From NCBI GenBank assembly GCA_027353465.1, contig DAIEHR010000080.1, positions 1 to 40,511 on the forward strand: a DNA stretch of 40,511 bases, written 5' to 3'. Shown in pieces: positions 1,906-38,612 of this stretch (its first letter is position 1; each line of letters starts with the position of its first letter). Source of the DNA: Acetobacteraceae bacterium. Lineage in GTDB: Bacteria; Pseudomonadota; Alphaproteobacteria; Acetobacterales; Acetobacteraceae. Both the position numbers and the translations under genes were made by a program. Below the pieces are notes generated by a model that had not been told where the DNA came from, ran no database searches, and worked only from the letters and a program-made list of their open reading frames with translations.

Positions 1906-2724
1906 TTACTTTCGCTCAGGAAGGTATGACCGCTGTCCCAGCACCTTCCGAAAATCCGGGGTCCGTTTCTCCTTCAGCGCGGTAACTCCCTCCTTCGATT
2001 CGTCCGACGCGTAATATAAACTGAGGGCCTGCATGCCCAGGCTGCCGATGCCACGGATATTTTCGCTGTCGGCGTTGAAGGAACGCTTGGCGATCGCGAT
2101 GGCTGTCGGGCTGCGCAGCACCAATTCGTCGCACCAGGCCCGCACCTCCGCATCGAGCTGGTCATTAGGCACGACCTTGTTGCACAGGCCCATCTCCATC
2201 GCCTCCCGGGCAGGATAACGGCGGCACATATACCAAATTTCACGCGCTTTCTTTTCGCCGACCACGCGGGCGAGATAGGCCGTGCCGAACCCGGGATCGA
2301 CGGAGCCCATTTTCGGGCCGACCTGCCCGAAAATGGCGTTCTCCGCCGCGATGGTAAGGTCGCAGATCGTCGCCAGCACATTCCCGCCGCCGATCGCATA
2401 GCCGCGCACCTTGGCGATCACCGGCTTGGGTACGTCGCGGATGGCGCTGTGCAGTTCCTCGACCGGCATGCCGACGGTGCCGCGGTTCTGGCCATCGCCG
2501 TACTGCCCGTCGTGATCCGACTGGTCGCCGCCGGTGCAGAAGGCGCGGTCGCCGGCGCCGGTCAGGACGATGACGCCGACATCCTTGTCCCATCCCGCCT
2601 TGAGGAAAGCATCGACCAGTTCCGAAGCCGTGCGCGGCCGAAACGCATTCAACTTCTCCGGCCGGTTGATAGTGATCGTCGCGGCACCGCGTTCGACCGA
2701 ATAAAGGATGTCGGTGTATTCCAT
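1906..2724 (-). CDS. badI: BadI-like 2-ketocyclohexanecarboxyl-CoA hydrolase (crotonase/MenB group)
   Basis: The 272-residue crotonase-fold protein has the oxyanion segment DRAFCTGGDQS, then IRDVPKPVIA, YAIGGGNVLATICDL, FGQVGPKMGSVDPGFG and REIWYMC. These signatures are shared by MenB and especially by BadI of R. palustris, which hydrolyses 2-ketocyclohexane-1-carboxyl-CoA to pimelyl-CoA and so opens the ring. The RGTVGMPVEELH stretch favours BadI over MenB, and no menaquinone genes are nearby. I start at the ATG at 2724 because AGGA (about ten bases upstream) suits it and homologues begin near MEYTDILY; an ATG at 2733 is only two bases from that site. The gene faces the TetR gene tail to tail and the metallo-hydrolase head to head. 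A close relative acting on another cyclic beta-keto-acyl-CoA is the main alternative. Confidence 0.8.
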   Translation of the reverse strand: MEYTDILYSVERGAATITINRPEKLNAFRPRTASELVDAFLKAGWDKDVGVIVLTGAGDRAFCTGGDQSDHDGQYGDGQNRGTVGMPVEELHSAIRDVPKPVIAKVRGYAIGGGNVLATICDLTIAAENAIFGQVGPKMGSVDPGFGTAYLARVVGEKKAREIWYMCRRYPAREAMEMGLCNKVVPNDQLDAEVRAWCDELVLRSPTAIAIAKRSFNADSENIRGIGSLGMQALSLYYASDESKEGVTALKEKRTPDFRKVLGQRSYLPERK

Positions 2725-2762
2725 CGTGCTCATTTCCTCGCGCCGCGCAGTTGCCTTACCTG

Positions 2763-2778
2763 TCGAATGATAGTTAGA
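2763..2778 (-). promoter_or_regulatory. Weak operator-like site upstream of the BadI-like gene
   Basis: Read on the minus strand, the sequence is TCTAACTATCATTCGA. It follows the CC-N-AAC-N4-GTT-N-GG pattern of the other sites with about four mismatches, and lies some 40 bases in front of the badI-like start in the divergent intergenic region. The match is degenerate; I list it only because of its position. Confidence 0.25.
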
Positions 2779-2797
2779 TTGCGCGCCTTGCGCAATC
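2777..2797. promoter_or_regulatory. Perfect 8-bp inverted repeat in the badI/hydrolase intergenic region
   Basis: GATTGCGC and GCGCAATC flank a 5-base centre (GCCTT). This is the most symmetrical element in the 154-bp divergent region. It could be a second operator or an RNA hairpin in the leader of the rightward gene at 2879. It does not resemble the TACCAAAC element. Confidence 0.35.
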
Positions 2798-2878
2798 CCG
2801 CTTACTGTCGCCCAGCCATGCGCGTCCCGATCCGGTTTCGCGTTGAAAAGCGATTTTCGATCACCTAGGTTCCGAAGA

Positions 2879-3925: not shown

Positions 3926-3945
3926 CGCCCCCGGGCGCGTCAGAC
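3920..3945. terminator. Bidirectional terminator-like hairpin spanning two convergent stop codons
   Basis: GTCTGACGC (3920-3928) pairs perfectly with GCGTCAGAC (3937-3945) around an 8-base loop. The stem contains the TGA of the rightward hydrolase (3923-3925) and the complement of the TGA of the leftward HMG-CoA-lyase-like gene (3940-3942). It can end both transcripts, although neither side carries a T-tract. Confidence 0.55.
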
Positions 3946-4875
3946 CCGGGTGTGCATCACCCGCCCGTTTAACGGCCGCCCGATGATCGCCTCCGCGTAG
4001 CGCGCGGCCTCCACCAGCGCCGCTAGGTCGATGCCTGTCTCTACGCCCAGTTCCCGGCAGAGATAGGCCATGTCCTCGGTGCAGATATTGCCGGCGGCGG
4101 CGGCGTTGGCATGGCCGGCGAAGGGGCATCCGCCGAGGCCGGCAACCGAGCTGTCGAACAAATCGATCCCCATTTGCAGCGCCGCATACACGTTCGCGGA
4201 CCCAAGCCCCCGCGTATCGTGCAGATGCAGTCCGATCCGCGCTTCGGGCGCCAGGTTCCGGACCGCGCCGATTCTGCGCTTGACCTCCTCGGGATTGCCA
4301 CGCCCCACCGTGTCGGCCAGCACCAGGGCAGGCAGCGGCAAGCCGCGGTCGCGGAACAGCGTGATCACCCAGCGAAACAGGTCGGTGACCGCAGACAGCG
4401 GCACGTCGCCCTGCAGGTTGCAACCGAACGCCGTCATGACATAGACCTTGGCAACGGTCAGTCCATACCGGCTGTAGCGATCCAGCCAAGCGGCCTGCTG
4501 GTCGCGCATCTCGATCATCGAACGGTTGTTGTTCGCCCGGCTGAACGCGTCGCTGGCATACAGCATCAGGTTTGGCTCAAGATCCAGTCCGGGCACGCCG
4601 CGCGCCTTCTCGAACCCTTTCTCGTTCAGCCACAGCGCGGTGTAGCGGACGCCCGCGCGGCGCGGAACGATCTCGAACAGCGATTCGGTATCGGCCATGG
4701 GAGGCACCGTTTTGGGGCTGACGAAAGAGCCGACCTGGATGCGCCGCAAGCCGGACGCCGCGAGCATGTCGATCAGTCTCGCGCGCTGCTCAATCGGGTA
4801 GGATCGAGGCTCGATCTGGAAGCCCTCCCGAGGGCCTTCCTCATGGAACTCGACATGCTTTGGAAAGTCAGTCAT
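3940..4875 (-). CDS. HMG-CoA lyase-like protein (DRE-TIM metallolyase)
   Basis: The 311-residue protein fits the family length. Seen in order are EEGPREGFQ near residue 12, which supplies the catalytic Arg of the DxxR region; QVGSFVSPKTVP; a HLHDTRG metal-binding pair near residue 218; and GLGGCPFAG followed by GNICTED, the glycine-rich loop with the conserved catalytic cysteine. HMG-CoA lyase splits HMG-CoA into acetyl-CoA and acetoacetate; relatives cleave other 3-hydroxy-3-methylacyl-CoAs. As the last gene of the 13-kb leftward run, it suggests that the pathway makes a methyl-branched 3-hydroxy-dicarboxylyl-CoA. The ATG follows GGAGAGGAG at good spacing. The gap to the upstream binding-protein gene is 175 bases, with no clear promoter seen. 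Hydroxymethylglutaryl specificity itself is unproven. Confidence 0.8.
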   Translation of the reverse strand: MTDFPKHVEFHEEGPREGFQIEPRSYPIEQRARLIDMLAASGLRRIQVGSFVSPKTVPPMADTESLFEIVPRRAGVRYTALWLNEKGFEKARGVPGLDLEPNLMLYASDAFSRANNNRSMIEMRDQQAAWLDRYSRYGLTVAKVYVMTAFGCNLQGDVPLSAVTDLFRWVITLFRDRGLPLPALVLADTVGRGNPEEVKRRIGAVRNLAPEARIGLHLHDTRGLGSANVYAALQMGIDLFDSSVAGLGGCPFAGHANAAAAGNICTEDMAYLCRELGVETGIDLAALVEAARYAEAIIGRPLNGRVMHTRV

Positions 4876-5050: not shown

Positions 5051-6259
5051 TCACGACGCCTTGCGCGCGATCAGCCGGCCCTCGGCAACATCCTCGGGAT
5101 ATATCACCACGTTTTTGTTCCCCTGGCGCTGCACCACCAGCAAATCCTGAAACGCCTGATGCATCGTTCCGCTCGGTGTCGCGGTGAAATGGGCCCGTCC
5201 CAGCGGCGTTTCGATATCGATGCGGCCGAGTGCGTCCACCACCTTTTCCGGGTCGTCCCCGACCTCGTCGAGCGCCAGCAGGAGGAGCGCCATCGCGCAA
5301 TACGCGCCCGCATCCAGATAATCCGCATCCATCTTGTAACGGTCTTGATATTTCCTTGCCCACTCGGTCGCGCTTGGGAATATATCCGGGCGGCGTTTAC
5401 TGGCCGGTCGCTTGATGCCCGCGGCGTAGCCGGTGACGCCGATCCAACCCTGCTGCGCGGTGCCGACGGCTTTTTGCCATGCATCGAACAGGGCGTCGAT
5501 GCCGTCGGTCAGATACGGCGCGGGCACGCCGGAAATACTGATCTGCTTCGCGAGATTGGCGAGATCGGTGGTCTGCACAAGGTTCACGACGACCTCGGGC
5601 TTACCGGCTCGAATACGCGCCAGCAGCGGGGAAAAATCATTCGCGCCTGATCGCAGCAGCAGTTCGTCGATGATCTTGAACCCGGCGTCGGAGAAATACT
5701 TGCGTGCGAACGCGAGACTGCCACGACCGTACGCATCGTCGGCGTATATGATCGTCGCCTTCTGGCCGGCACCCAGATAATGCCGCAACGCCGCCGACAT
5801 CGACGACTGGTAGTGGTACGCATAGGGAAACGTATGAAAGAAATGCGGTTCGGCGCCGACTTGCTCCTCGGTCAGCGTGCCGGTCGATCCATGTACGATC
5901 CAGACCGGCTTCCCTTCGCGCCAGGGCGGGATCGATGCCGCGACCATGGCGCTGGATATCGGCCCGAACGTATAACGAACCTTGTCCTGACCAACGAATT
6001 CGTTGACTGCCGAAACGGTCGCCTGGGCGTCGGATTGCACATCCTTGATCAGCAGTTCGACCTTGCGTCCATGAACCTCGCCATGGAATGCATCCAGGGC
6101 CATTTCCGCGCCGCGCTTGCCGGCACTGCCGAAAGCGACGAACCGGCCGCTAAGTTCCAGTGGCACGCCGATGCGAATGGGCTCTTCCGCCTTTGCCGAA
6201 CGAAAGCTTCCGGCGGATAACGCCGCCATCCCGCCAACGACCACTCTTCGCGAAACCAT
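5051..6259 (-). CDS. LivJ/LivK-type periplasmic substrate-binding protein, orphan
   Basis: The 402-residue protein is a type I periplasmic binding fold of the branched-chain amino-acid/ANL-receptor group (IGVPLELSGRF, then DVQSDAQATV and YADDAYGRG). The N-terminus MVSRRVVVGGMAALSAG ends near AKAEE; the twin arginine and short hydrophobic stretch look like a Tat or Sec signal. No permease or ATPase gene accompanies it. In alpha- and betaproteobacteria such orphan binding proteins commonly sit inside acid-catabolism operons and may serve a distant LIV transporter. It lies 60 bases after the CoA-transferase gene and 175 before the lyase gene, all leftward. The ligand could be the pathway's carboxylic or aromatic-like acid; that is inference. 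Confidence 0.8.
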   Translation of the reverse strand: MVSRRVVVGGMAALSAGSFRSAKAEEPIRIGVPLELSGRFVAFGSAGKRGAEMALDAFHGEVHGRKVELLIKDVQSDAQATVSAVNEFVGQDKVRYTFGPISSAMVAASIPPWREGKPVWIVHGSTGTLTEEQVGAEPHFFHTFPYAYHYQSSMSAALRHYLGAGQKATIIYADDAYGRGSLAFARKYFSDAGFKIIDELLLRSGANDFSPLLARIRAGKPEVVVNLVQTTDLANLAKQISISGVPAPYLTDGIDALFDAWQKAVGTAQQGWIGVTGYAAGIKRPASKRRPDIFPSATEWARKYQDRYKMDADYLDAGAYCAMALLLLALDEVGDDPEKVVDALGRIDIETPLGRAHFTATPSGTMHQAFQDLLVVQRQGNKNVVIYPEDVAEGRLIARKAS

Positions 6260-6319: not shown

Positions 6320-7546
6320 TCAGGGCCGGCCGCGCCGTCCGGCAATGCCGGCGCCGCGCAGCCAGGCGATATCGTCCGCCGTGTAGCCTGCCTCGGCCAA
6401 AATTTCGTCGGTGTGCTCGCCATGAAGTGGCGGCGGCCGCCGCACCGCGCGCGGCAAGCCGTCGATCGCCACCGGATAGGCGATCGCCCGCATCGCCCCC
6501 CCCAGGTGCTGGTAGTGCATGATCATGCCGCTCTGCTCCAACTGCGGTTCGCTCAGCAGCCGGTCGATCGTGTTAACCGGCGCCGCCGGTATCCCGGCCG
6601 CTTCGAATAACGCCAGCCAATGCGCCAGCGGATGACGGACAACGGCCTGTTGCACCAGCGCGACGGTTTCGGCGAAATGCCGCACCCGGTCGGCGTTGGT
6701 GCGAAACCGCGGATCGTCGCGCATGCCCGGCATGCCCAGCGCATCGCACAGCGCGCCCCAAAGCCGGTCGCTGCCAACCGCGATCAGGATATAGCCGTCA
6801 GCCACCCGAAATGCCTGATACGGACACAGCGAGCCGTGTGCAGATCCCATCCGGCGCGGCAGTTCGCCCGTCTCCCACCAGCTTTGCGCGTGCCAGGCCA
6901 GGAACGCGGTCGCGGTATCGAGAAGCGAGGCTTCGACATACGCCCCTTCGCCGGTCCGGTCGCGCCGGCGAATGGCCGCCAGGATGCCGGTCGCGGCGTG
7001 GATGCCGGTGGTTTGATCAAGCGGCGAGAAGGCGATCCGCAGCGGCGGCCCGTCCGCCTCCCCCGTCACCGACATGATGCCGGTGAATGCCTGCAGGATC
7101 AGTTCGTACGCCGGCCGTTTCGCCAACGGCCCGGTCCGCCCGAACCCCGAGATGCTGCAATAGATCAGCCGCGGGTCCTCCGCCCGCAGCAGGCCGGGCG
7201 GGATTCCCAGGCGATCGGTCACGCCGGTGGCGTAGCTTTCCACCAGCACATCGGCGCGACGCGCCAGCGCCCGGACGGCGGCCTGACCCTCGGGCGTCTT
7301 GAGATCCAGGGCGATGCTGCGCTTGTTGCGGTTGACTGCCACGAACATCGCCCCATCGTCGCCGACGAAGGGCGGCATGTTGCGCATGTCGTCGCCGATG
7401 CCGGTGTCTTCGACCTTGATGACCTCGGCTCCTAGATCGGCTAGGTACTGCGTGCAAATCGGCCCCGCCATCATTTTGGTAAGGTCGAGCACCACGATGT
7501 CGTCGAGCGGCATCATAGACGCGGAAACACCAGGGTTCGCGGCCAT
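6320..7546 (-). CDS. Class III (CaiB/Frc family) CoA-transferase
   Basis: The 408-residue protein opens with VVLDLTKMMAGPICTQ and GAEVIKVEDTGIGDD, then NRNKRSIALDLKTPEG, ISGFGRTGPL and SPLDQTTG, whose Asp aligns with the catalytic Asp of formyl-CoA transferase that forms the acyl-enzyme. It ends with LHGEHTDEIL. The family moves CoA between carboxylic acids such as succinate, oxalate, itaconate or aromatic succinates. Start ATG 7546 lies four bases after the IclR stop, so the two are translationally close. It is similar along its length to the CoA-transferase at 8405-9670 (both contain YQAF, VGSDRLW and RTNADRVR), which points to an old tandem duplication now flanking the regulator. The acid it activates is unknown. 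Confidence 0.88.
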   Translation of the reverse strand: MAANPGVSASMMPLDDIVVLDLTKMMAGPICTQYLADLGAEVIKVEDTGIGDDMRNMPPFVGDDGAMFVAVNRNKRSIALDLKTPEGQAAVRALARRADVLVESYATGVTDRLGIPPGLLRAEDPRLIYCSISGFGRTGPLAKRPAYELILQAFTGIMSVTGEADGPPLRIAFSPLDQTTGIHAATGILAAIRRRDRTGEGAYVEASLLDTATAFLAWHAQSWWETGELPRRMGSAHGSLCPYQAFRVADGYILIAVGSDRLWGALCDALGMPGMRDDPRFRTNADRVRHFAETVALVQQAVVRHPLAHWLALFEAAGIPAAPVNTIDRLLSEPQLEQSGMIMHYQHLGGAMRAIAYPVAIDGLPRAVRRPPPLHGEHTDEILAEAGYTADDIAWLRGAGIAGRRGRP

Positions 7547-7550
7547 CTCG

Positions 7551-8399
7551 CTACTTTCCCTTGGGATGGAGATCGGGCCGCCGTCGCTTTCGCGGGACAG
7601 GTACCGCCGCCTGCGGCATACCAAGCGCGCGGGAAATCAATGTCGCCGCGTTACGTATCTGAGTCTTGAGCCGACAGGTCGCAACGGTCGAGCGGCTGAC
7701 AGGCGCGGCCATCGCCACCGCCGCGACGACGCGCCCCGCTTCGTCGATCAACGGCGCGGCGAAGCCGGAGACTTCGGTGGATACCTCGCCCTGCGTGACC
7801 GCCACGCCCTCTTCGCGGATCCGTGCGAGCAGCGGGCGCAGCGCCGCGGCTTGCGTGACCGTCAACGGCGTCAGCGGCACGAGGTCGGTGTCCCACAGAT
7901 AGGCTTCGATCTCCTCCTCGGGCAAACTCGCCAACAGGACCCTTCCGGCGGCGGAGCAATACAGCGGCCGCGAGGTGCCCAGCGGCACGGTGTAGCGGAT
8001 CGAATTGGCGCTCTCGACTTTCTCCACATAGATCGCGCGGTGTGTTTCCCGGTCCAGCAGCGCGATCAGCACCGTTTCTCCCGCCTGCCGGGCCAGGTCC
8101 TCCATGAAGGGGCGCGCTATCCGCGTCAGGGATATCGCGGGCGTCAGTGCCAGCCCCAGCCGGTGGGCTTCCGGGCCCAGCAGGTATTTTCCGCCTCCTT
8201 GCAAGACGTACCCGCCGCCGGCCAGTGCCCGGAGCAACGCCAGCAGGCTGCTTTTGGGTGCGTCGGCGTGCTCGCTCAACCGAGCCAGGCTGATTCCTTC
8301 GGGGAAGGAGGCGATGTGGCTCAGCAGCCGCAATGTTCGCAGTGCCGCCCGAGGCCCGCTGTCCAGCGCCGTCGCGTCTTTCAGAGTGGAGGAGGCCAT
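7551..8399 (-). CDS. IclR-family transcriptional regulator embedded in the operon
   Basis: The 282-residue protein has an N-terminal winged helix (LRLLSHIASFPEGISLARLS, then APKSSLLALLRAL) and an IclR effector domain: YVEKVESANSIRY, PLYCSAAGRVLLA and REEGVAVTQGEVSTEVSGFAAPLID. IclR proteins bind small acids or their CoA derivatives and regulate nearby catabolic operons. It lies five bases after one CoA-transferase gene and four before its paralogue, all leftward, so it is co-transcribed with its likely targets instead of being divergent as is usual. Its C-terminus is rich in Arg and Lys. The family assignment is firm; the ligand and operator were not identified. Confidence 0.88.
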   Translation of the reverse strand: MASSTLKDATALDSGPRAALRTLRLLSHIASFPEGISLARLSEHADAPKSSLLALLRALAGGGYVLQGGGKYLLGPEAHRLGLALTPAISLTRIARPFMEDLARQAGETVLIALLDRETHRAIYVEKVESANSIRYTVPLGTSRPLYCSAAGRVLLASLPEEEIEAYLWDTDLVPLTPLTVTQAAALRPLLARIREEGVAVTQGEVSTEVSGFAAPLIDEAGRVVAAVAMAAPVSRSTVATCRLKTQIRNAATLISRALGMPQAAVPVPRKRRRPDLHPKGK

Positions 8400-8404: not shown

Positions 8405-9670
8405 CTAGCCCTGTTCGACGCTGCCGGGCGGCCCCGAACCGGCGGGCACCTGCTTGCCCACGGCCACGACGCGCCTTTCAACCCAGTCATCGATCTGCTC
8501 CGAAGTGAAGCCGGCTTCCAGCAACACGTCCTGGGTATGCTCGCCCAGCATCGGCGGCGGCATCCGCACGCGCCGGTCCTGGCCGTCCGTACGCAGCGGG
8601 ATGCTGATGCTGTTCAGCGCTCCATAGCGCGGGTGCTGGTAGGGCTGAACGATGCCGCGGTCAGCGACGTGCGGAAAAGCCAGTACTGTCTCTACTGGAT
8701 TGATCGGCGCGTTGGGCACTCCAGCCGCGGTCAAGATGGCGACCCATTCCGCCACCGTCTTCCGCCGCAGCCGATCGCCGACCAGTGCCACCGTCGCTTC
8801 GAAATTGCGAACCCGGTCAGCGTTGGTGCGATAGCGCGGATCGTCGGCGTGGGCGTCGAGGCCCGCCGCCGCGCACAGCCGTTGCCAAAGCCTGTCGCTG
8901 CCCACACCCAGCATGATGTAATCGTCGGCCGCCTGGAACGCCTGATACGGACACAGCGATTCGTGACCCGATCCGGCCTTGCGCGGTGGCTCGCCGGTCA
9001 ACCACCAAGTCTGTGCGCTATAGGCGAGAAACGCCATGGCGGTGTCGAACAACGAGACTTCCAGGAAGCGCCCCTCGCCGGTGCGATCGCGCTCGCGAAG
9101 CGCGGCGAGAATGCCGATCACGGCCCACAGGCCGGTGGTCTGATCCAGCGGCGAGAACGGGCTGCGCACCGGCATGCCGCCCTTTTCTCCGGTGATGCCC
9201 ATGATCCCGCTCGCCGCCTGCAGCATCATGTCATAACCCGGCAGGTCCGAAAGCGGCCCGGTGCGGCCGTAGCCCGATATGCTGACATAGATGATTCCCG
9301 GACGCCGTGCCCGAACCTGCTCGTAGCCGAAGCCCAGCCGGTCAATGGTTCCTTCTCGATAGCTTTCAAGGAAGATATCGGCGGTATCGAGCAGCCGGCC
9401 AACGATCTCGCGGCCCTCGGGGGTTTTCAGATCGACCGCCACGCTGCGCTTGTTGCGGTTGACGCTGAGAAAAATAGCCCCATCCCGCCCGTCGCCGGCG
9501 AACGGCGGCCACCCCCTCGTATCGTCGCCAGTCCCGGTTGGCTCCACCTTGATCACGTCCGCGCCGAGGTCGGCCAGGCACTGGCTACAGGTCGGTCCCG
9601 CCAGCACTTTGCCCAGGTCCAGCACGCGCACGCCTCGCAGCGGCAGGAAGCCCTCCGCCTTGGCACTCAT
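8405..9670 (-). CDS. Class III (CaiB/Frc family) CoA-transferase
   Basis: The 421-residue protein has VRVLDLGKVLAGPTCSQ, GADVIKVEPTGTGDD, NRNKRSVAVDLKTPEG, ISGYGRTGPLSDLPGY, SPLDQTTG with the catalytic Asp, and LGEHTQDVL near the end. Its ATG overlaps the stop of the upstream ligase by four bases (ATGA, 9667-9670), indicating translational coupling. The close resemblance to the protein at 6320-7546 suggests the two arose by duplication; they may form a heteromeric enzyme or handle two acids. The nearby AMP-ligase provides a second way of loading CoA. The donor, possibly succinyl-CoA, and the acceptor are not determined. Confidence 0.88.
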   Translation of the reverse strand: MSAKAEGFLPLRGVRVLDLGKVLAGPTCSQCLADLGADVIKVEPTGTGDDTRGWPPFAGDGRDGAIFLSVNRNKRSVAVDLKTPEGREIVGRLLDTADIFLESYREGTIDRLGFGYEQVRARRPGIIYVSISGYGRTGPLSDLPGYDMMLQAASGIMGITGEKGGMPVRSPFSPLDQTTGLWAVIGILAALRERDRTGEGRFLEVSLFDTAMAFLAYSAQTWWLTGEPPRKAGSGHESLCPYQAFQAADDYIMLGVGSDRLWQRLCAAAGLDAHADDPRYRTNADRVRNFEATVALVGDRLRRKTVAEWVAILTAAGVPNAPINPVETVLAFPHVADRGIVQPYQHPRYGALNSISIPLRTDGQDRRVRMPPPMLGEHTQDVLLEAGFTSEQIDDWVERRVVAVGKQVPAGSGPPGSVEQG

Positions 9671-13027: not shown

Positions 13028-13058
13028 GGGTAGGATCCTGTTCGCGCGGCGATGGGCC

Positions 13059-30283: not shown

Positions 30284-30762
30284 CAACGAACAGCGAATAC
30301 GAAGTGGTGGGGCTTGGGCTGCACTACGAGGATCTTCCGGTCGGGCGGAAATTCCGCACCATCGCCCGCACCGTGACCGAATCCGACCTGGTCGCCTTCA
30401 TCAACGCGACCGGCATGACCGAGGTGCTGTTCACCGACGTCGAATTCCTGGCCCATGAAAGCGACATCAAGGGCCGGCCGGTCCCCGGCGCGCTGGCTTA
30501 CACCTTTGCCGAGGGGCTGCTTACCCAATCCACCATGCAGCACACCGGTTTCGCCTTCCTGCATATGGAACTGACGATCGAAAACCCATGCCGGGTCGGC
30601 GATACCATCCATGTCGAGTGCGAGGTGGTGGAAAGCCGGCGCAGCAAGAGCCGGCCGAATCGCGGTCTGGTCCGCACGAGCAACCGCGTGGTGAAGCATG
30701 ATGGCACGACGGTCCTGACCTACACGCCGCTGCGGATGGTCAAGGCGCGGAGCACCGGCTGA
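30280..30762 (+). CDS. MaoC-like hotdog protein lacking both catalytic residues
   Basis: The 160-residue single-hotdog protein has the strands and helix of MaoC (VGRKFRTIARTVTESDL, RVGDTIHVECEV) but reads NATGMTEVLFTD where hydratases have TGDxNPxH. The Asp and His positions are Met46 and Phe51, so it is unlikely to hydrate by the usual mechanism. It may act as a binding or thioesterase-like protein, or hydrate by another route. Its start overlaps the dehydrogenase stop (ATGA), and its stop overlaps the CoA-transferase ATG by one base (TGATG), so its output is closely tied to its neighbours. Confidence 0.78.
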   Translation: MTTNSEYEVVGLGLHYEDLPVGRKFRTIARTVTESDLVAFINATGMTEVLFTDVEFLAHESDIKGRPVPGALAYTFAEGLLTQSTMQHTGFAFLHMELTIENPCRVGDTIHVECEVVESRRSKSRPNRGLVRTSNRVVKHDGTTVLTYTPLRMVKARSTG

Positions 30763-31958: not shown

Positions 31959-32708
31959 TCAGTCCACCATCGTCAGCCCGCCGCTGACGCTGAGGACCTG
32001 ACCGGTGACATAGTCGGTGCGCGGACCGAGGAAGAACATCACCGCCTCGGCGATCTCCTGTGGCTGGGCAACACGGCGGAACGGAATGGCGCGGGTCAGC
32101 GCCTCGCGCATCCGTTCCGGCTGGGCCTGAAGCAGCGGCGTGTCGGTCGGCCCAGGGCAGACGCAGTTCACGTTGATGCGGCTTCTGGCCATTTCCCGCG
32201 CGAGCGACTTGGTGAACGCGATGATCCCGCCCTTGGCGGCCGAATAGACCGTCTCACCCATGCTGCCGACGCGGCCGGCGTCGCTGGAGATGTTGACGAT
32301 CTTGCCCTTTCCGGCGGCGATCATCGGCGGCAGCACGCCGCGGCAAAGGCGCACCGCGCCCAACAGGTTGATGTTGATAAGCCGCTCCCATATGGCGGGG
32401 TCGTTTTCCATGAAGGGCTGGATGCGGTCCCAGCCGGCGGCGTTCACCAGCCCGTCCAGCCGGCCACCGGCGGCCGCGTTCGCACCGGCGGCAAACTCCT
32501 CCACGGACGCCGCCTGCGTCAGGTCGAGTTTCAGGAACTCGACGCGCAATCCCTGTCCCGCCGCGTCCTTGGCGACCGCATGCCCGGCGTCTTCGGTCAC
32601 GTCGCCAATGATGACGCGGGCGCCTTCCCGTGCGAGCAGGAACACGGTTGCCTTACCGATTCCCGACGCGCCGCCGGTGACCGCGACAACGCGATCTGCC
32701 ATATCCAT
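31959..32708 (-). CDS. badH: BadH-like 2-hydroxycyclohexanecarboxyl-CoA dehydrogenase (SDR)
   Basis: The 249-residue SDR has TGGASGIGKA, VNAAGWDRIQPF, the ISSDAGRVGSMGE segment and active-site YSAAK, and ends TGQVLSVSGGLTMVD. This set, especially the NAGWD motif, SDAGRVG and the SGGLTM ending, is the pattern of BadH of R. palustris, which oxidises 2-hydroxycyclohexanecarboxyl-CoA to the 2-keto form with NAD. GGAAAA precedes the ATG by six bases. It lies 27 bases after the luciferase-like gene at the end of the leftward Rieske operon, distant from badI at the other end of the window. A 3-hydroxyacyl-CoA dehydrogenase of another ring system is the alternative. Confidence 0.75.
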   Translation of the reverse strand: MDMADRVVAVTGGASGIGKATVFLLAREGARVIIGDVTEDAGHAVAKDAAGQGLRVEFLKLDLTQAASVEEFAAGANAAAGGRLDGLVNAAGWDRIQPFMENDPAIWERLININLLGAVRLCRGVLPPMIAAGKGKIVNISSDAGRVGSMGETVYSAAKGGIIAFTKSLAREMARSRINVNCVCPGPTDTPLLQAQPERMREALTRAIPFRRVAQPQEIAEAVMFFLGPRTDYVTGQVLSVSGGLTMVD

Positions 32709-32735: not shown

Positions 32736-33836
32736 TCAGGCGGCGCTTGCCATGCCGCCGACCTCTGCCTCGACATTTAGCGCCTTCAGCTTCGGTAGAA
32801 CATGACTGGCGAATAGCCGCATGCTGGCCTGCGCCATCGGATACGGCATGCCGCCGTAGCTGAAGATTGTAACAAATCCAGAACAGTCCGTCAGTCGCTG
32901 GAAGTGCAGCATCTGCTCCAATACCTGTTCGGGCGTTCCGCGCACCTGCAAGTCGGCAAGGAAGTTGACGAAAGCATCGATCCCGTGCTTGGAAATATTC
33001 CGCGCCAGCGCTCCATAGTATTCGTAACCGTTGATGTCCGCCAAGCCTTCATTGTGGAATTCGTAATGCTCCAGCGCCGACCGGCTGTAGCCGCGGGTAT
33101 ACCGCTCGTGCATCTCCTGTGCCATGGCGGCGTCCTCGTGGCAGGCGACGAAGCAGACCATCAACGGCTTCGGGGGTTCGCTGCCGGGATGCATCTCCCG
33201 GTAGATCGCCCTGTATTCGTTTAGTTCCGCCACCGTCTTGTCCCACGGCTTCTGCGCGATGATCATCACGCCAATGCCCAGACGCGCCATGATCCGCGCC
33301 GATTCCGGCGACACGGCCGAGGCATAGACCCTTCCCTTGAAACTGCGGAACGGCGTTGGGCGGATTTGGATGGGTTTCTGCTGATACAGCTTGCCATCGG
33401 ACTGGATCACCCCGGTTTCCAGCGCGCCCAGGATTGCTTCCGTATGCTCGACGAAGCGTTGCCGGGACTGACCCATATCCAGGCGGAAACCGTCGAACTC
33501 GACCCGCCCAAGGCCCCGGCCGAAGCCCAGGATCGCACGCCCGTCCGAAACGTGGTCCAGCACCGAGATCTCCTCGGCAAGCCGCACCGGGTCGTGCCAG
33601 GGCACCACCATGACCATCGATCCCAACTGCACCCGCCGTGTGCGCCCGGCCATGTAGGTCAGGAACTGCGATACGTTCGGGCACATCGTGTAGTTGTCGA
33701 AATGATGCTCGGCGGACCAGATGGAATCGAAGCTCAACGGTTCCGCCTGGTCGGCAAGCGCCAGTTCATTCCGATACACCTCGCGATCCGTCAGGCCATT
33801 GAGGTTCTGAAAGAACGTGCTCATTCCAACATGCAT
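32736..33836 (-). CDS. Luciferase-like flavin-dependent monooxygenase (LLM class)
   Basis: The 366-residue protein has the bacterial luciferase-like barrel: SIWSAEHHFDNY, LGSMVMVVPWHDPVRLAEE, ILGFGRGLGRVEF and ASAVSPESARIMARLGIG. Such enzymes use reduced FMN or F420 to oxygenate ketones, sulphonates or aromatic/terpenoid substrates. It stands 37 bases downstream of the Rieske oxygenase gene in the same leftward unit, which suggests two successive oxygenations, or oxygenation followed by Baeyer-Villiger-type ring opening. No flavin reductase gene is in the window. GGAGAGA precedes the ATG. The true substrate is unknown. Confidence 0.85.
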   Translation of the reverse strand: MHVGMSTFFQNLNGLTDREVYRNELALADQAEPLSFDSIWSAEHHFDNYTMCPNVSQFLTYMAGRTRRVQLGSMVMVVPWHDPVRLAEEISVLDHVSDGRAILGFGRGLGRVEFDGFRLDMGQSRQRFVEHTEAILGALETGVIQSDGKLYQQKPIQIRPTPFRSFKGRVYASAVSPESARIMARLGIGVMIIAQKPWDKTVAELNEYRAIYREMHPGSEPPKPLMVCFVACHEDAAMAQEMHERYTRGYSRSALEHYEFHNEGLADINGYEYYGALARNISKHGIDAFVNFLADLQVRGTPEQVLEQMLHFQRLTDCSGFVTIFSYGGMPYPMAQASMRLFASHVLPKLKALNVEAEVGGMASAA

Positions 33837-33873: not shown

Positions 33874-35028
33874 TCAGCCAGTCATGAGGCCGAGTTCGGT
33901 GCGGATCGCCCGGTGATAATGCGCCAGGGCTGGCTCGTTGCGGCCAAACGTCACATGCTCCTGGGCGCCAGAACCAAAGGCGCGCTGCATGCCGGCGGCG
34001 AGCGGGAAGTCCTCGTCCTGGACGGTTCGCATCAGCAAATCCATGTTCTTGTCCCAGTATCGGCGCGCCTTCTCAGTCGCCGGTTCCTCGGGGGCATAGA
34101 GCGAAACGTGCATGAGGCTTTCATTGGCACCGTCTCCGGCTGGATACACGCGCCATGTCTCGACATGGTCACCCTGCCAGATGAGTACGACGTTCGGGAA
34201 CAGGACATACACCACGGCGGTATGCCGCAGCACGTTCCAATCCGGCTCCGGTGTCGTCCGCAGGTCGCCAATGGTCTTGCGCGGCACCGCCATGCGCAGG
34301 TTCGGCCCGTTGCCGCGAAACGCCGCCGCCGTGCCATGCAGCAGCGGTGCGATGGTGTTCCGGTGCAGTACCGGAACATGATACACTTCCAGGAACGTAT
34401 CGATCACCAGCTTCCAGTTCAGCGGCTGGCGCAGTACGCGGGTTTCGTAGTGCGTGTAAGACCCAAGCCCGTAGCTGCCGAGTTCCGGACCCAGCCCGCA
34501 TAGCTGCGCGTCGGGGTCGATGGCCGGCCCAGCCGAGGGGCGCACCCAGATCAGTCCGTCCTTTTCGGCCGCCGGCAGGCGTGTCAACCCATAGTCCGCC
34601 AGGTCGATGTCCCCAAAAGAGCGCCGTTCAGCGATACTCGCGAGCCGGCCGTCCAGGTCATAACTCCACGCGTGATAAGGGCAGGTGAACCGGTCCTTGG
34701 AGACGCCACATCCCTCAGCCACGCGGGTCCCGCGATGCCGGCAGACATTGAGGAAGCCGTTCACGCCGCCTTCCGCATTGCGCACGATCAGGATCGGGGG
34801 ACCGGCGAAGTCGTTGGTCATGTAGGAGCCGGGCGCAGGCAAATCGCAACTCAGTCCCATGACGAGCGGACCTGTGCGAAAGAATCGCTCCCGCTCAAGC
34901 TTTACCTGATCGGCAGAGACGTAGTCGCTCACGGGGTTGCGGAACAAATCGTCAGCCAGCGCCGTGCGCCGCCCGTCGAGTGCCGACAACAATTCCTGGC
35001 CGAGTTCGACCTGCATGGCATGGTTCAT
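33874..35028 (-). CDS. Rieske non-heme iron oxygenase, large subunit
   Basis: The 384-residue protein carries the Rieske [2Fe-2S] ligands CRHRG (Cys96, His98) and CPYHAW (Cys116, His119), and a mononuclear iron site in NWKLVIDTFLEVYH followed by His222 (His217 and His222), with a later Asp near VQDEDF. The length and the AW after the second motif fit the alpha subunit of ring-hydroxylating or demethylating oxygenases. No beta subunit, ferredoxin or reductase gene is nearby, so a partner encoded elsewhere must supply electrons. It is first in a leftward operon with the luciferase-like and badH genes. Its promoter overlaps the operator at 35091-35108. It probably hydroxylates the ring or a ring substituent. 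Confidence 0.87.
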   Translation of the reverse strand: MNHAMQVELGQELLSALDGRRTALADDLFRNPVSDYVSADQVKLERERFFRTGPLVMGLSCDLPAPGSYMTNDFAGPPILIVRNAEGGVNGFLNVCRHRGTRVAEGCGVSKDRFTCPYHAWSYDLDGRLASIAERRSFGDIDLADYGLTRLPAAEKDGLIWVRPSAGPAIDPDAQLCGLGPELGSYGLGSYTHYETRVLRQPLNWKLVIDTFLEVYHVPVLHRNTIAPLLHGTAAAFRGNGPNLRMAVPRKTIGDLRTTPEPDWNVLRHTAVVYVLFPNVVLIWQGDHVETWRVYPAGDGANESLMHVSLYAPEEPATEKARRYWDKNMDLLMRTVQDEDFPLAAGMQRAFGSGAQEHVTFGRNEPALAHYHRAIRTELGLMTG

Positions 35029-35155: not shown

Positions 35156-36847
35156 TCAACCGCGAAGGCCAAGCTCCTCGATCATGTGCCGGCGGATCAG
35201 GAATTTCTGGATCTTGCCCGTCACGGTCATCGGAAAGGAGTCCACGAAACGGATGTAGCGGGGGATTTTCTGGTGGGCGATCCGGCCGCGGCAGAAGGCG
35301 CGGATTTCCTCCTCGACAAGCGTCTCACCGTCGGTCAACCGGATCCACGCACAAAGTTCTTCCCCGAATTTGTCGTCCGGCACGCCGACCACCTGAACGG
35401 TCTGCACTCTGGGATGCTGAAACAGGAAATCCTCGATCTCCCGCGGATACAGATTCTCACCGCCCCTGATCACCATGTCCTTGATCCGGCCGACAATCGC
35501 GCAATAGCCCTCGGCGTCGATCATGGCCAGGTCGCCCGTATGCAGCCACCGGGCGCTGTCGATTGTCTCCCGCGTCTTTGCATCATCGTCCCAATAGCCC
35601 AGCATCACCACGTAGCCGCGGATGCAGAGTTCGCCTTTGTCGCCGGCGGCGACCATCTTGCCGTCAAGGTCCACGACCTTGGCCTCGACATGCGGCAGCA
35701 CCCTGCCGATCGTCGTGGCCCGGCGTTCCAGTGGGTCGTCGAGACGGCTCAGGAACGTGCCGGGGCTAGTTTCGGTCATTCCATAGGCGATCGCCAGATC
35801 GCGCATGTGCATCCGGTCAACCACCCGCTTCACGATCTCTATCGGACAGGGCGATCCGCCCATGATGCCTGTCCGCAGCGTCTTAAGGTCGAAGGATGCG
35901 AAGTCCGGATGATCGAGTTCGGCGATAAACATCGTCGGAACGCCGAACAGGGCGGTGCAGCGTTCGGCCTCGACCGCAGCCAGCACGGCGCCAGGATCGA
36001 ATCCCTCGCCAGGGTAGATCACCGCGGCGCCATGCACCAAGCAGCCGAGGTTGCCAGCCACCATGCCAAAGCAGTGGTAGAGCGGAACCGGCAAACAGAG
36101 CCGGTCGGCTTCGGTCAACCGCAGTCCGTCAGTCAGATAGAAGGCATTGTTCAGAATGTTATGATGCGACAGCGTCGCCCCTTTCGGTGAGCCGGTCGTG
36201 CCCGACGTGAACTGGATGTTGATCGGATCGTCGCACTGCAATGTCGGAGCCAGCGCCCGCACCTGTTCATCGGTTTCCGCCGTCGCCGCCAGCGCCACTC
36301 CATCGAACGGCAGGAAGCCTGGTTCGGACGTGTCAGAGATTAGTATGGCGATCTTCAAGTGCGGCAACCGCGCGCTGTCCGCCGGCCATGCTTCATCCAT
36401 GAGTTCCGGCAGTAGGGCGTGCATCATGCCGACATAGTCGCTGCTCTTGAAAGCGCGGGCAAGCACAAGGCCCCGGCATTGCGACAGGTTCAGCACGTAT
36501 TCGAGTTCCGCCGCCCTGTAGGCCGGATTGATGGTGACCAGGATCACCCCCGCCTTGGCCGCGGCATATTGCGTAAGGAGCCATTCTGCATTGTTTGGCG
36601 ACCAGATGCCAAGCCGGTCGCCCGGCCGAAGCCCGAGGGCCAGCAGCCCCGAGGCGACCCGATCCGCCCGCTCCCGCAACTCCGCGTAACTCCACCGGAT
36701 GTCCTGGTGGCAGGCCACCATGGCGTCGCGATCGGCCCAGATATCAGCCGCGCGATCCAGCGCGGCGCCGATCGTCTCTCCACGTAGCGGTATGTCGCTG
36801 ACACCGTGGACGTAGCTCAGCGCGGCGGGTTGGCAGTCATTCGGCAT
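35156..36847 (-). CDS. Medium/long-chain-type acyl-CoA synthetase (FadD-like, AMP-forming)
   Basis: The 563-residue ligase has the ATP/AMP motif [29 protein letters not shown], the hinge region [25 protein letters not shown] and the C-terminal adenylation Lys in [22 protein letters not shown] and [14 protein letters not shown] are common in the fatty-acyl-CoA synthetase branch. It would activate a carboxylic acid at the cytoplasmic face. It is divergent from aliA across a 142-bp region holding the operator at 36917-36930, so two ligases of different type are controlled together; this one probably handles a side-chain or linear acid. It is followed by the Rieske operon after a 127-base gap that has its own promoter. 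Confidence 0.86.
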
Positions 36848-36913
36848 AACGTTCCTCCCTGGGAATTTATTGCTTGCCCCGGAAGCTTTTGCCTGCGAGG
36901 GATATGGCCACCT

Positions 36914-36942
36914 AGACTACCAAACGTTAGCATGACTTTGAA
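36914..36942 (-). promoter_or_regulatory. Promoter of the FadD-like ligase gene with an operator in its spacer
   Basis: On the minus strand TTCAAA (36942-36937), 17 bases and TAGTCT (36919-36914). As at the Rieske promoter, the spacer ends in GTTTGG and the -10 begins TAG, the shared TACCAAAC element read on the other strand. The hexamers are weak matches; the repeated architecture is the main support. Confidence 0.45.
36917..36930. promoter_or_regulatory. Operator-like element 7 (CTACCAAACGTTAG) between the two ligase genes
   Basis: TACCAAAC is followed directly by GTTAG, without the four-base spacer seen at 1121 and 35091 and like the site at 17278. It lies 70 bases from the FadD-like start and 60 from the aliA start. 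Confidence 0.6.
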
Positions 36943-36989
36943 CGTCAGACGAGGGCTTTGCCGCATTAGGACGAGCCAGGGAGCGAAAT

Positions 36990-38612
36990 ATGATACAGCC
37001 GAACGATGTGACCGAACGAAGATGCACGATGCGCGCCGCGGGCCATTGGCGCGATGTCGTGCTGACCGATTTCCTGGACCGCTGGGCGGCCGAACGCCCC
37101 GATAGCATAGCCGTCGTTGACCACAACAGCGTGACCGGGATACGTACCGAGCTGACGTTCAGCGAGTTGGCCGGACGGGTTGACCGGCTCGCCGCCGGCC
37201 TCGCCCGGCTGGGTGTCGGGCGAGGCGACGTGGTCTCGTTTCAATTGCCTAATTGGTGGCAGTTCAATGCCCTTCATCTGGCGGCGCTTCGGCTTGGCGC
37301 CGTCACCAACCCGCTGATGCCGATTTTTCGCGAACGCGAACTCGGCTTCATGCTAGGCCTCGCCGAGAGCAAGGTACTGGTGGTGCCGCGCGTGTTTCGC
37401 GGCTTCGATCATCGGGCCATGGCCGAACGGTTGCGTCCCGGCCTGCCGGCGCTACGGCATCTGCTGGTGATCGGCGGAGAGGACGAGACGTCCTTTGAAG
37501 CCCTGATGGAGACACCGGCGCCGTCCGCCCGGACGTTCCGCCCAGACCCGGATGACGTCATCCAGCTGCTTTATACCTCCGGCACCACCGGCGAGCCAAA
37601 AGGTGCCATGCATACATCCAACACGCTGTTCAGCAACGTCATACCCTATGCCGAACGGCTCGGCCTGACCGCGGCGGATCCGGTGCTGATGGCCTCGCCG
37701 ATGGCGCACCAGACCGGCTTCATGTACGGCTTGATGATGGCGATGTGGCTCGGCGCCAAGAATGTCCTACAGGATGTCTGGAGCGCCGAACGCGCGGCCG
37801 ACATCATCGCCGCCGAGGGCGTCGCCTTTACCATGGCATCGACGCCGTTCCTCAGCGATCTGGTCGAGGTCGCGGAACGCCGGCCCGAGGCATTCCGCCG
37901 CTTCCGCATTTTCCTGGCAGGCGGCGCACCGATCCCGCGCGTACTGGCCCGGCACGCCGCCGAGGCGCTCGGCTGCGCGATCGTCTCCGGCTGGGGCATG
38001 ACGGAGAATGGCGCCATGGCGATCGGCAAGCTGGACGATCCGCCGGAAAAAATATTCGAAACCGACGGCTGCCCGCTGCCCGGGATGGAGCTTCGGGTCG
38101 TCGATGCGGACTGGAAGGCGTTGCCCAGCGGCGAGGAGGGCCAGTTGCAGGCCCGCGGATGCAGCAATTTCGTCGGTTATCTAAAGCGCCCCGAACTGAA
38201 CAACACCGACGCGGACGGCTGGTTCGATACGGGCGATCTGGCTCGCCTCGATGCCGACGGTTATGTCCGCATTACCGGCCGCGCAAAGGACATCATCATC
38301 CGAGGCGGCGAGAATGTTCCGGTGGTCGAGATCGAGCAGGTTCTCTACCGCCATCCTGCGGTGCAGGAGGTTGCTATCGTCGCCATGCCGGACCCGCGGC
38401 TTGGGGAGCGCTGCTGCGCCTTCGTGGTGACGCGTGAGGGCGAACACTTCGACATGGGCGAGATGCGACGCTTCCTGGAAGAGCAAGGGATGGCGCGGCA
38501 TTACATGCCGGAGCGGCTGGAGATCGTTCCGGAACTGCCCAAGACGCCGAGCGGCAAGATTCAGAAATTCCGGTTGCGCGATGCAGCCCGGACGTTTGCC
38601 GGCAATGCCTGA
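36990..38612 (+). CDS. aliA: AliA-like cyclohexanecarboxylate-CoA ligase
   Basis: The 540-residue AMP-forming ligase has the series characteristic of annotated cyclohexanecarboxylate-CoA ligases: VSFQLPNWWQFNALHLAALR, NPLMPIFRERELGFML, LYTSGTTGEPKGAMHTSNTL, ASPMAHQTGFMYGLMM, FLAGGAPIP, GWGMTENGAM, DTGDLARLDADGYVRITGRAKDI split over the hinge, and the C-terminal Lys in PSGKIQKFRLR. AliA activates cyclohexanecarboxylate with ATP and CoA as the entry step. ATG 36990 follows GGGAG at seven bases. It stands alone, divergent from the FadD-like ligase gene, and the IS remnants start 166 bases after its stop. A substituted or unsaturated ring acid may be the natural substrate. Confidence 0.8.
   Translation: MIQPNDVTERRCTMRAAGHWRDVVLTDFLDRWAAERPDSIAVVDHNSVTGIRTELTFSELAGRVDRLAAGLARLGVGRGDVVSFQLPNWWQFNALHLAALRLGAVTNPLMPIFRERELGFMLGLAESKVLVVPRVFRGFDHRAMAERLRPGLPALRHLLVIGGEDETSFEALMETPAPSARTFRPDPDDVIQLLYTSGTTGEPKGAMHTSNTLFSNVIPYAERLGLTAADPVLMASPMAHQTGFMYGLMMAMWLGAKNVLQDVWSAERAADIIAAEGVAFTMASTPFLSDLVEVAERRPEAFRRFRIFLAGGAPIPRVLARHAAEALGCAIVSGWGMTENGAMAIGKLDDPPEKIFETDGCPLPGMELRVVDADWKALPSGEEGQLQARGCSNFVGYLKRPELNNTDADGWFDTGDLARLDADGYVRITGRAKDIIIRGGENVPVVEIEQVLYRHPAVQEVAIVAMPDPRLGERCCAFVVTREGEHFDMGEMRRFLEEQGMARHYMPERLEIVPELPKTPSGKIQKFRLRDAARTFAGNA

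Follow-up and report, generated by a model that had tools for sequence, protein, structure and literature searches.

In Gram-negative bacteria, the bad-ali genes form a compact cluster of badH, badI, aliB and aliA with a MarR-type badR, as set out in parts of PMC9795900, in which an aerobic bad-ali pathway is already on record: in Aromatoleum sp. CIB, it runs with and without O2. The chcpca cluster of Rhodococcus aetherivorans BCP1 encodes BadI, BadH, AliA and AliB homologues and serves aerobic alicyclic acid use (excerpts of PMC5906575). The suggestion in an initial annotation of the DNA discussed here, that an aerobic version of this pathway had gone undescribed, is thus incorrect for its aerobic part. 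In mrc (Castellaniella defragrans; PMC4109377) and lrc (Syntrophobacteraceae LiM6; PMC12583861), as far as the parts of these sources drawn on here describe them, cleavage of a branched ring acyl-CoA is of the BadH/BadI type, and in lrc, ring cleavage is followed by cleavage at a tertiary carbon. Among the best-ranked open-licence PMC papers, we found no description of the gene combination treated below or of the AliB-crotonase islands to which it is related.

The window (the whole stretch of DNA analysed) is a 40.5-kb contig of a 4.59-Mb Acetobacteraceae metagenome-assembled genome that is 77% complete. On another contig, C303, this genome carries a compact and complete badH-badI-aliB-aliA operon with a MarR gene, which is the arrangement of the published bad-ali clusters. 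Like bad-ali in R. palustris and Aromatoleum sp. CIB (parts of PMC9795900), the window encodes AliA, AliB and BadI classes and shares the common logic of ligase, dehydrogenase, hydratase, short-chain dehydrogenase (SDR) and ring hydrolase. Unlike bad-ali, it spreads these proteins over four transcription units and 37 kb, with a TetR rather than a MarR gene beside BadI and no BadR adjacent; its SDR is not BadH by score, and its crotonase is not BadK-like. The genome has two BadI-class, two AliB-class and three AliA-class genes, of which the window contig holds one each. Because the host keeps a complete operon on C303, the window holds a second AliA/AliB/BadI-class set that is non-orthologous to that operon. 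The features are as follows (percentages are identities; G numbers are relatives' genomes, and type B is a label coined in this analysis).

1275..1898, +, TetR regulator (Pfam TetR_N, TetR_C_24; true start possibly further upstream)
1906..2724, -, BadI-clade hydrolase (beta-ketoacyl-CoA ring hydrolase class; TIGR03210, tree)
3940..4875, -, HMG-CoA-lyase-like lyase (PF00682; PRK05692 247.6 bits, over the cut-off of 246)
5051..6259, -, periplasmic binding protein LivK1 (PF13458; 54% homologue in G019 C11)
6320..7624, -, family III CoA-transferase 1 (PF02515)
8405..9670, -, family III CoA-transferase 2 (PF02515; 58% in G019 C11)
9667..11676, -, acetyl/acetoacetyl-CoA synthetase-like ligase, AcsL (64% in G019 C11)
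11649..12128, -, MaoC hydratase 1 (52-53% identical to its counterparts in the ring-cleavage clusters of KH32C and Sphingopyxis)
12152..13045, -, CitE-like lyase (start not fixed; PF03328; 64% in G019 C11)
13059..14225, -, acyl-CoA dehydrogenase 1, ACAD1 (acyl-CoA dehydrogenase family)
14316..15551, -, family III CoA-transferase 3 (start inferred; family match)
17738..19030, -, PF04909 protein, predicted dinuclear oxygenase (PtmU3-like; PDB matches, ligand motifs)
19196..20377, +, AliB-class acyl-CoA dehydrogenase (TIGR03207, tree, context)
20374..21162, +, crotonase of the AliB-crotonase pair (overlaps the AliB stop; only generic best matches)
21182..22054, +, SDR2, 2,4-dienoyl-CoA-reductase-like SDR (PRK07677 210.3 bits, cut-off 318)
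25312..26637, +, family III CoA-transferase 4 (family match)
28503..29096, +, CMD-family protein (75% in G019 C96)
29093..30283, +, acyl-CoA dehydrogenase 3 (family match)
30277..30762, +, MaoC hydratase 3, MaoC3 (72-76% in type-B clusters of G006, G008, G041)
30762..31934, +, family III CoA-transferase 5 (76% in G019 C96)
31959..32708, -, BadH-like SDR (TIGR03206 268.2 bits, below the BadH cut-off of 431.2)
32736..33836, -, luciferase-like flavoprotein (PF00296; 83% in G019 C96)
33874..35028, -, Rieske oxygenase alpha subunit (PF00848, PF00355; 74% in G019 C96)
35156..36847, -, fatty-acid-CoA-ligase family protein (PRK12583 832.7 of 832)
36990..38612, +, AliA-class acyl-CoA ligase (TIGR03208, clade)

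All four reading frames on which the initial annotation built its case, 1906-2724(-), 19196-20377(+), 31959-32708(-) and 36990-38612(+), are present, as are the Rieske and luciferase-like proteins, five family III CoA-transferases and CitE-like and HMGL-like lyases that it placed around them. The proposed resemblance to ali/bad proteins stands for three of the four, for which the AliA, AliB and BadI models are the top NCBIfam matches just below their cut-offs, and fails for BadH. BadI reaches 451.1 bits with TIGR03210, the best of all models (cut-off 467.6; MenB models 346.2 and 311.9), and in a tree of 45 rows, two of them MenB outgroup rows, it lies within the BadI clade, split from MenB at 100/100, which rules it out as the host MenB. 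It is sister to G024 and then to type-B BadIs (97/93), not to the C303 BadI. Window BadI is therefore a BadI-clade protein, with putative hydrolase activity on 2-ketocyclohexanecarboxyl-CoA; its only neighbours are the TetR gene and an MBL-fold gene. AliA scores 752.4 bits with TIGR03208 (cut-off 792.3; next model 460.6) and clades with G019 and G002 proteins, outside the canonical AliA clade. AliB scores 544.8 bits with TIGR03207 (cut-off 575.35; next model 222.5), a score that is not diagnostic since a Polaromonas AliB-class protein without a nearby BadI reaches 541.6, the C303 AliB 563.7 and the Salipiger AliB 583.2. Window AliB falls outside the clade of AliBs found beside BadI, and the AU test gives p=0.367 for joining it to that clade and p=0.712 for joining it to the alpha crotonase clade, rejecting neither position.

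The same models place the C303 BadI over its cut-off (484.8 versus 467.6 bits) and the C303 AliB, BadH (406.0 bits) and AliA (735.5, matched stretch only) under theirs; the Salipiger AliB and AliA (802.2) lie above, and its BadH (382.3) below. The TIGR03206 cut-off is thus strict, as the C303 and Salipiger BadHs also fall short of it. We nonetheless reject the SDR at 31959-32708 as BadH, given its 268.2 bits (FabG model, 210.6) versus 406.0 for the C303 protein; it is 57-60% identical to type-B SDRs, 57-58% to those of Paeniroseomonas and Siccirubricoccus and 47% to the C303 BadH. Nor does the crotonase beside aliB bear out its proposed role as BadK: its best matches are generic, and the hydratase that follows aliA in a bad-ali cluster of Paraburkholderia shares 33% identity with it.

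Several other genes were considered as markers. The PF04909 protein matches PtmU3 (1.5e-63) and DitZ (2.4e-34) in the PDB, and its predicted metal ligands (D69, H71, H258, E311, D379, H382 and E384, from motif and alignment to PtmU3) fit the signature given in part of PMC7782822 for PtmU3-type amidohydrolase-related dinuclear oxygenases (D-x-H, H, E and D-x-x-H ligands plus an acidic residue two positions beyond the final His). As an island-specific oxygenase it is ruled out, being a genus core gene (27/33 genomes); with 42% identity as the lower bound, 12 loci around its homologues showed no luciferase-like or Rieske gene and no AliA, AliB or BadI, but two had a LivK2-like gene, one the phosphoesterase and one a MaoC1-like gene. 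ACAD1 is not specific either (31/33 genus genomes, own included). The luciferase-like protein best matches alkanal monooxygenase alpha in the PDB (4.1e-35), but the PDB relatives of this protein and the Rieske protein are too distant for a substrate call. SDR2 was dropped as a bad-ali/mrc marker: 398 genomes of the phylum gave six non-self matches, and the six surrounding stretches of 16-20 kb had no BadI, AliB or AliA on a tblastn recheck; SDR2 is 33% identical to the Sphingopyxis-cluster SDR.

The described ring-cleavage systems differ from the window in other ways. The chcpca cluster is compact and actinomycete, and its gene table, in the portion of PMC5906575 concerned, is without Rieske, CitE or HMG-CoA lyase. 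Both Sphingopyxis and the KH32C plasmid carry a MaoC-CitE-ACAD trio next to BadI that resembles that of the window (ACAD, 60-62%; MaoC, 52-53%; CitE, 32-35%), where the trio lies 9 kb from BadI. Unlike mrc/lrc, in which BadH, BadI and hydratase adjoin a tertiary-carbon-cleaving enzyme, the window has AliA/AliB classes, an HMG-CoA-lyase type and lyases of other families, and no HMG-CoA-synthase-like protein or thiolase was found among the window proteins scanned.

We posit, at close to an even chance, that cyclohexanecarboxylate is not the substrate of this second set, which would most likely act on a branched alicyclic acid of the isoprenoid type. A branched, terpenoid-like substrate, as first proposed, is favoured because isoprenoid-type islands contain relatives of AliB, the crotonase, SDR2, the HMG-CoA lyase and TetR. 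We infer the following order of steps. The AliA-class ligase would form the CoA ester of the ring acid, the AliB-class dehydrogenase would create a double bond at the 2,3 position, hydration would fall to the overlapping crotonase (or MaoC3), SDR2 or the BadH-like SDR would oxidize the alcohol, and BadI, working with the AliB module, would hydrolyze the ring ketone. The resulting branched dicarboxylyl-CoA could then be processed by MaoC1, the ACADs, the CoA-transferases and the CitE/HMGL lyases, with lyase cleavage predicted at a tertiary carbon. Oxygen-dependent modifications may be the work of the Rieske and luciferase-like proteins.

Are these genes a set at all? A less probable but serious alternative is that unrelated acyl-CoA units (AliB-crotonase-SDR2, AliA with the oxygenases, CoA-transferase/AcsL/CitE and a lone BadI) adjoin by chance on a chromosomal stretch and have no common substrate. 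In G019, the AliA/luciferase-like/Rieske/CMD/CoA-transferase 5 module (C96) and the LivK1-CoA-transferase 1-ACAD1-CitE-AcsL-CoA-transferase 2 module (C11) are present in a genome with no BadI and no AliB. In G002 (80% complete), AliB, crotonase (75%), SDR2 (80%) and AliA form one operon, 75-82% identical to the window proteins, with no BadI-class match. CitE homologues occur in 2/33 and Rieske homologues (E<=1e-60) in 3/33 genus genomes, own included, and a genus core gene lies mid-window. Against chance adjacency, one contig holds a gene of each class, and other relatives join the parts: AliA is linked to the AliB module in G002, and a G030 cluster combines SDR2 (69%), BadH, BadI, FadH, AliB (68%) and an HMG-CoA-synthase-like protein, the last sharing 45% identity with a counterpart encoded near BadI on the KH32C plasmid of Azoarcus. 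Window BadI, SDR, MaoC3 and AliA resemble the distinct ring-cleavage cluster of six sister genomes, the type-B clusters, which combine BadI, ACAD, SDR, AliA (64-66%) and MaoC3. Paeniroseomonas aquatica and Siccirubricoccus phaeus unite HMG-CoA lyase (61% to the window), AliB (69%), AliA (67%; 57% to C303), ACAD, a BadI/MenB-like hydrolase (55%) and a window-type SDR (57-58%; 48% to the C303 BadH) inside 8 kb; these near-identical loci count as one case, and the Paeniroseomonas hydrolase is equally close to MenB (60%) and the C303 BadI (59%). The initial idea of a coherent set thus survives in part: this cluster comes close to it, but relatives also split the window into separable modules.

It is improbable that the AliB-crotonase pair belongs instead to an Atu/Liu-like branched-chain route, in which acyclic isoprenoid acids are carboxylated and cleaved by HMG-CoA lyase, no ring is involved and BadI is a bystander. 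The AliB survey covered 82 loci, 80 of them the top-ranked among 575 confirmed, with many from related Roseobacters, and took in 10-12 kb per side, less near contig ends; gene calling in relatives relied on a simple script based on GC, which overlooked some genes, and key genes were checked by tblastn. The 51 AliB-crotonase loci have an MCC-type carboxyltransferase (47/51), HMG-CoA lyase (40/51) and FadH (41/51), as would suit such a route, versus 0/16 for any of these at AliB loci with a BadI of at least 60%; the Fisher value of 7e-9 overstates independence because so many loci come from related Roseobacters. Another 15 of the 82, including the Paeniroseomonas and Siccirubricoccus loci, have neither the crotonase nor a BadI of at least 60%. 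Plasmid islands of Roseibium, Sagittula and Polaromonas share the AliB-crotonase pair and HMG-CoA lyase with the window (61-67%; crotonase, 65% in Polaromonas and 62% in Sagittula), and the window lyase is 62-64% identical to the lyases of three plasmid AliB islands. ACAD1 recurs in Roseibium and Polaromonas, SDR2 in Roseibium and TetR (45-46%) in Roseibium and Sagittula; no BadI occurs in the island sequence covered. The window TetR is also 58-61% identical to TetR proteins of six betaproteobacterial AliB loci, five of them encoded within ~0.3 kb upstream of AliB; a G014 TetR protein reaches 68%. In Roseibium, the island contains AtuA together with three carboxylase sets; its AtuA-family segment holds five window-like proteins at 55% or more, and four other 48-50 kb segments of the plasmid hold none. 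Unlike these islands, neither the window nor the G002 operon contains the carboxylase or FadH. An MCC-type carboxyltransferase has no match in G002 and a single one in the host, on another contig; a FadH search of the host, which had no positive control, gave no match, and none was obtained in G000, G002 or G019. Moreover, in G002 an AliA-class ligase is part of the same operon as the AliB module, and the Paeniroseomonas AliB and HMG-CoA lyase sit beside the BadI/MenB-like hydrolase. That the four proteins simply duplicate the C303 operon is very improbable: three lie just under NCBIfam cut-offs, as the C303 AliA and AliB do, and the AU test is compatible with AliB in the BadI-context clade, but the SDR scores far below BadH, the genes are scattered without BadR beside them, and neither BadI nor AliA groups within its canonical clade.

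Hence a second pathway for a branched alicyclic acid is favoured by the C303 operon and by the linkages in Paeniroseomonas/Siccirubricoccus, G002, type B, G030 and Roseibium, of which the Paeniroseomonas/Siccirubricoccus cluster adds weight to it and takes weight from its rivals. It is weakened because no locus among the 82 pairs the window-type crotonase with a BadI of at least 50% (10-12 kb per side), G002 is without BadI and G019 without BadI or AliB; the AU test, the unlinked SDR2 relatives, the ambiguous Paeniroseomonas hydrolase, the lack of a thiolase among the window proteins scanned and the host's FadH and carboxyltransferase results also count against it. The claim that the four proteins constitute the bad-ali pathway is not supported, given the C303 operon, the SDR, an AliB-crotonase pair near which none of the 82 loci has a BadI of at least 60%, and the AliA/oxygenase module present in G019 without BadI or AliB. 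More specifically, and more doubtfully, we speculate that the window encodes an aerobic route by which Acetobacteraceae cleave the ring of a branched, cyclic isoprenoid acid, a reading to which the Paeniroseomonas/Siccirubricoccus cluster also adds some weight. Here the oxygenases would prepare the substrate, an AliA/AliB-crotonase-SDR2 module acquired from isoprenoid islands would act next, a BadI from a separate lineage would then open the ring, and CitE/HMG-CoA lyase would cleave a branched dicarboxylyl-CoA.

A match just under the cut-off of the AliA, AliB or BadI model is not, on its own, a sign that cyclohexanecarboxylate is degraded: in isoprenoid-type islands, one type of AliB is paired with a crotonase (0/51 such loci near a BadI of at least 50%). 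If the combined pathway is true, it would constitute a terpenoid-acid route in Acetobacteraceae, and the annotation of naphthenic-acid degradation would gain a means to separate substrates.

The four open reading frames (ORFs) that the initial annotation had read as AliA, AliB, BadH and BadI are all found, and its observation was right in part: the ORFs stand where it placed them and Pfam confirms their surroundings, but all four score under their models' cutoffs, three of them narrowly and the proposed BadH by a wide margin. A TetR gene that it does not mention lies beside BadI.

Features of the window, with best NCBIfam matches
1275-1898: TetR gene, convergent with BadI across a gap of 7 bases
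1906-2724: BadI; best match BadI, 451.1 bits (cutoff 467.6)
19196-20377: AliB; best match AliB, 544.8 bits (cutoff 575.35)
31959-32708: BadH-like SDR; best match BadH, 268.2 bits (cutoff 431.2)
36990-38612: AliA; best match AliA, 752.4 bits (cutoff 792.3)
38831-39577, + strand: IS1595-type transposase, close to the contig end
40058-40480: truncated IclR-type gene, after the IS1595-type transposase

Pfam also identifies a Rieske oxygenase, a luciferase-like protein, five family III CoA-transferases, CitE-like and HMG-CoA-lyase-like proteins, four acyl-CoA dehydrogenases (ACADs) and three MaoC-like proteins, with no thiolase among the 40 window ORFs scanned. A crotonase of the AliB-crotonase type overlaps AliB.

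The window is an entire contig (C146) of the host genome (4.59 Mb, 77% complete). On a separate contig, C303 (L021 9672-14630), the host carries AliA, AliB, BadI and BadH consecutively, together with a MarR gene in divergent orientation. BadI of that contig scores 484.8 bits, over the NCBIfam cutoff, and BadH scores 406.0 bits; a comparison genome, G005, carries the same set. Identity between window and C303 is 69% for AliB, 58% for AliA, 76% for BadI and 47% for the window SDR against BadH. Because this canonical set is present, the four window proteins form a second set, and because the window's parts are moreover of other lineages, the proposal that these four proteins are the ali/bad pathway is unsupported. 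An aerobic bad-ali pathway is already known and thus not new: PMC9795900 reports that the bad-ali cluster of Aromatoleum CIB is required for growth on cyclohexanecarboxylate both aerobically and anaerobically, and that such clusters are widespread and often lack badK, and PMC5906575 lists bad/ali homologues in an aerobic Rhodococcus. A third AliA-class ligase of the host, cut by a contig end (C287, L043 4844-10512), lies beside flavin-monooxygenase and cytochrome P450 genes.

An alignment scan of the genome collection confirmed 575 AliB relatives, and we examined 82 loci, namely the best 80 of the 575 plus two plasmid loci. A crotonase of the window type, with no BadI of at least 50%, occurs in 51 of the 82; in 16, BadI of at least 60% is present and the window-type crotonase is absent; two have a BadI-like gene at 55%, again without this crotonase, and 13 have neither. 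The crotonase-type loci commonly include an MCC-type carboxyltransferase (47/51), HMG-CoA lyase (40/51) and FadH (41/51), each found in 0/16 of the BadI-type loci; in sequence, the carboxyltransferase resembles methylcrotonyl-CoA carboxylase and AccD1 more closely than it does geranyl-CoA carboxylase. In the AliB tree, C303 AliB falls inside a BadI-context clade (20 rows, SH-aLRT 97) and window AliB outside it, paired with that of G002 (99). Since an AU test does not reject joining window AliB to that clade (p = 0.367), the argument rests on gene context and not on phylogeny. The model score is uninformative on context, because a Polaromonas AliB with no BadI nearby scores alike (541.6 bits).

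In a tree of 45 rows, rooted on two MenBs (split 100/100), window BadI is sister to that of G024 (98/91) and not to C303 BadI, and this pair next groups with six BadIs of sister genomes (G004, G006, G008, G015, G041 and G046; 97/93). These six belong to what we call type-B clusters (L027, L029, L046, L047, L028, L026), whose BadI lineage is separate from the canonical lineage. BadI is accompanied there by an ACAD that differs from AliB, by an AliA at 64-66% and by an SDR sharing 57-60% identity with the window SDR. The genes share a single stretch in five of the six genomes, the AliA of G015 being on a different contig, and MaoC3 recurs at 72-76% in three clusters. Based on the BadI tree and on these SDR, AliA and MaoC3 identities, the window appears to carry, in its BadI, BadH-like SDR, MaoC3 and AliA, a dispersed counterpart of the type-B cluster. 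The SDR is poorly resolved in its own tree, and no type-B-like neighbors were found in the 20 kb read around G024 BadI. In the assembly of G015 (C90, L025 4288-5050), gene calling splits the BadH-like gene next to BadI into two pieces.

The closest match found to the gene set first annotated is a compact cluster in Paeniroseomonas aquatica (L059 8976-16749) and Siccirubricoccus phaeus (L060 8976-16717), the two loci with the 55% BadI-like gene. Being near-identical, they are treated as a single case. Within 8 kb, one strand bears HMG-CoA lyase (61%) and AliB (69%), and the other bears AliA (67%), an ACAD (38% to window ACAD3), the BadI-like hydrolase, an SDR and a TctC-type solute-binding protein (identified in Paeniroseomonas). 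The SDR is 57-58% identical to the window SDR versus 48% to C303 BadH; the hydrolase is 59% identical to C303 BadI versus 60% to an annotated MenB. Carboxyltransferase (42%) and biotin-carboxylase (51-52%) genes lie 4-6 kb beyond both clusters. This compact arrangement argues that a single pathway, separate from the canonical bad-ali route, can be built from AliA, AliB, an SDR of the window type, a ring hydrolase and HMG-CoA lyase.

A serious, though less likely, alternative is that the window holds independent modules rather than one pathway. In G019 (97% complete), one contig (C96) unites CMD, CoA-transferase 5, the luciferase-like and Rieske genes, AliA (83%), a PF04909 protein (80%) and a flavin-monooxygenase gene, and another (C11) carries the LivK1/CoAT1/ACAD1/CitE/AcsL/CoAT2 set; this genome lacks both a BadI-class match (highest score, 162 bits) and, at E<=1e-70, an AliB. 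In G002 (80% complete), a single operon on C125 joins AliB (82%), crotonase (75%), SDR2 (80%) and AliA (76%), again with no BadI-class match. Window AliA clusters with those of G019 and G002 (100), outside the canonical AliA clade. Across the 33 genomes of the genus, AliA-class genes (E<=1e-120) occur in 15 and the Rieske gene (E<=1e-60) in 3, host included. The PF04909 "amidohydrolase" at 17738-19030 (- strand) is a genus core gene (27/33 genomes; 90-93% identity in ten of these) that retains every metal ligand of the PtmU3-type dinuclear oxygenases, its nearest solved structures by sequence being PtmU3 (1.5e-63) and DitZ (2.4e-34). In G014 (C234, L139 13248-15789), the PtmU3-like gene forms two tandem copies (79% and 86%) beside ACAD1 at 92%, and the contig also bears a TetR 68% identical to the window TetR.

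As to substrate, the initial guess that the ring acid is substituted and terpenoid-like is strengthened by a Roseibium plasmid and by the regulators of AliB loci. One segment of this plasmid carries an AtuA-family gene alongside three carboxylase sets, and in it window HMG-CoA lyase (62%), ACAD1 (68%), AliB (66%), crotonase (61%) and SDR2 (66%) all have relatives. At 55% or above, no window relatives occur in four further segments of the plasmid, each of 48-50 kb. TetRs of six betaproteobacterial AliB loci share 58-61% identity with the window TetR and, in five of these loci, lie directly upstream of AliB. Counting against an isoprenoid link, FadH has no match in the host (a search without positive control), the single host MCC-type carboxyltransferase lies outside the window, and 31 of the 33 genus genomes have an ACAD1 homologue.

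Clusters elsewhere combine these gene types. In G030, from another family of the class, about 10 kb hold a thiolase, an HMG-CoA-synthase-like protein, SDR2 (69%), a hydratase, TetR (45-48%), BadH, BadI (72%), FadH and AliB (68%). A plasmid of Azoarcus KH32C encodes, at 9-10 kb from its BadI gene, counterparts of the G030 thiolase (66% identity) and HMG-CoA-synthase-like protein (45%). Judged by gene order, the BadH-BadI set of that plasmid is probably the set to which, according to PMC4109377, Castellaniella MrcD and MrcE show the greatest similarity. A Sphingopyxis macrogoltabida plasmid (NZ_CP013345.1, L161) brings together BadH/BadI, a MaoC-CitE-ACAD trio, an HMG-CoA-synthase-like protein and an alkane 1-monooxygenase, and is a candidate for aerobic ring cleavage of a cyclic terpene. 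According to PMC9795900, an additional badKHI cluster has been suggested for monoterpenes. Over independent modules we tentatively favor, at close to an even chance, the reading that the window encodes a second pathway, one for a branched alicyclic acid.
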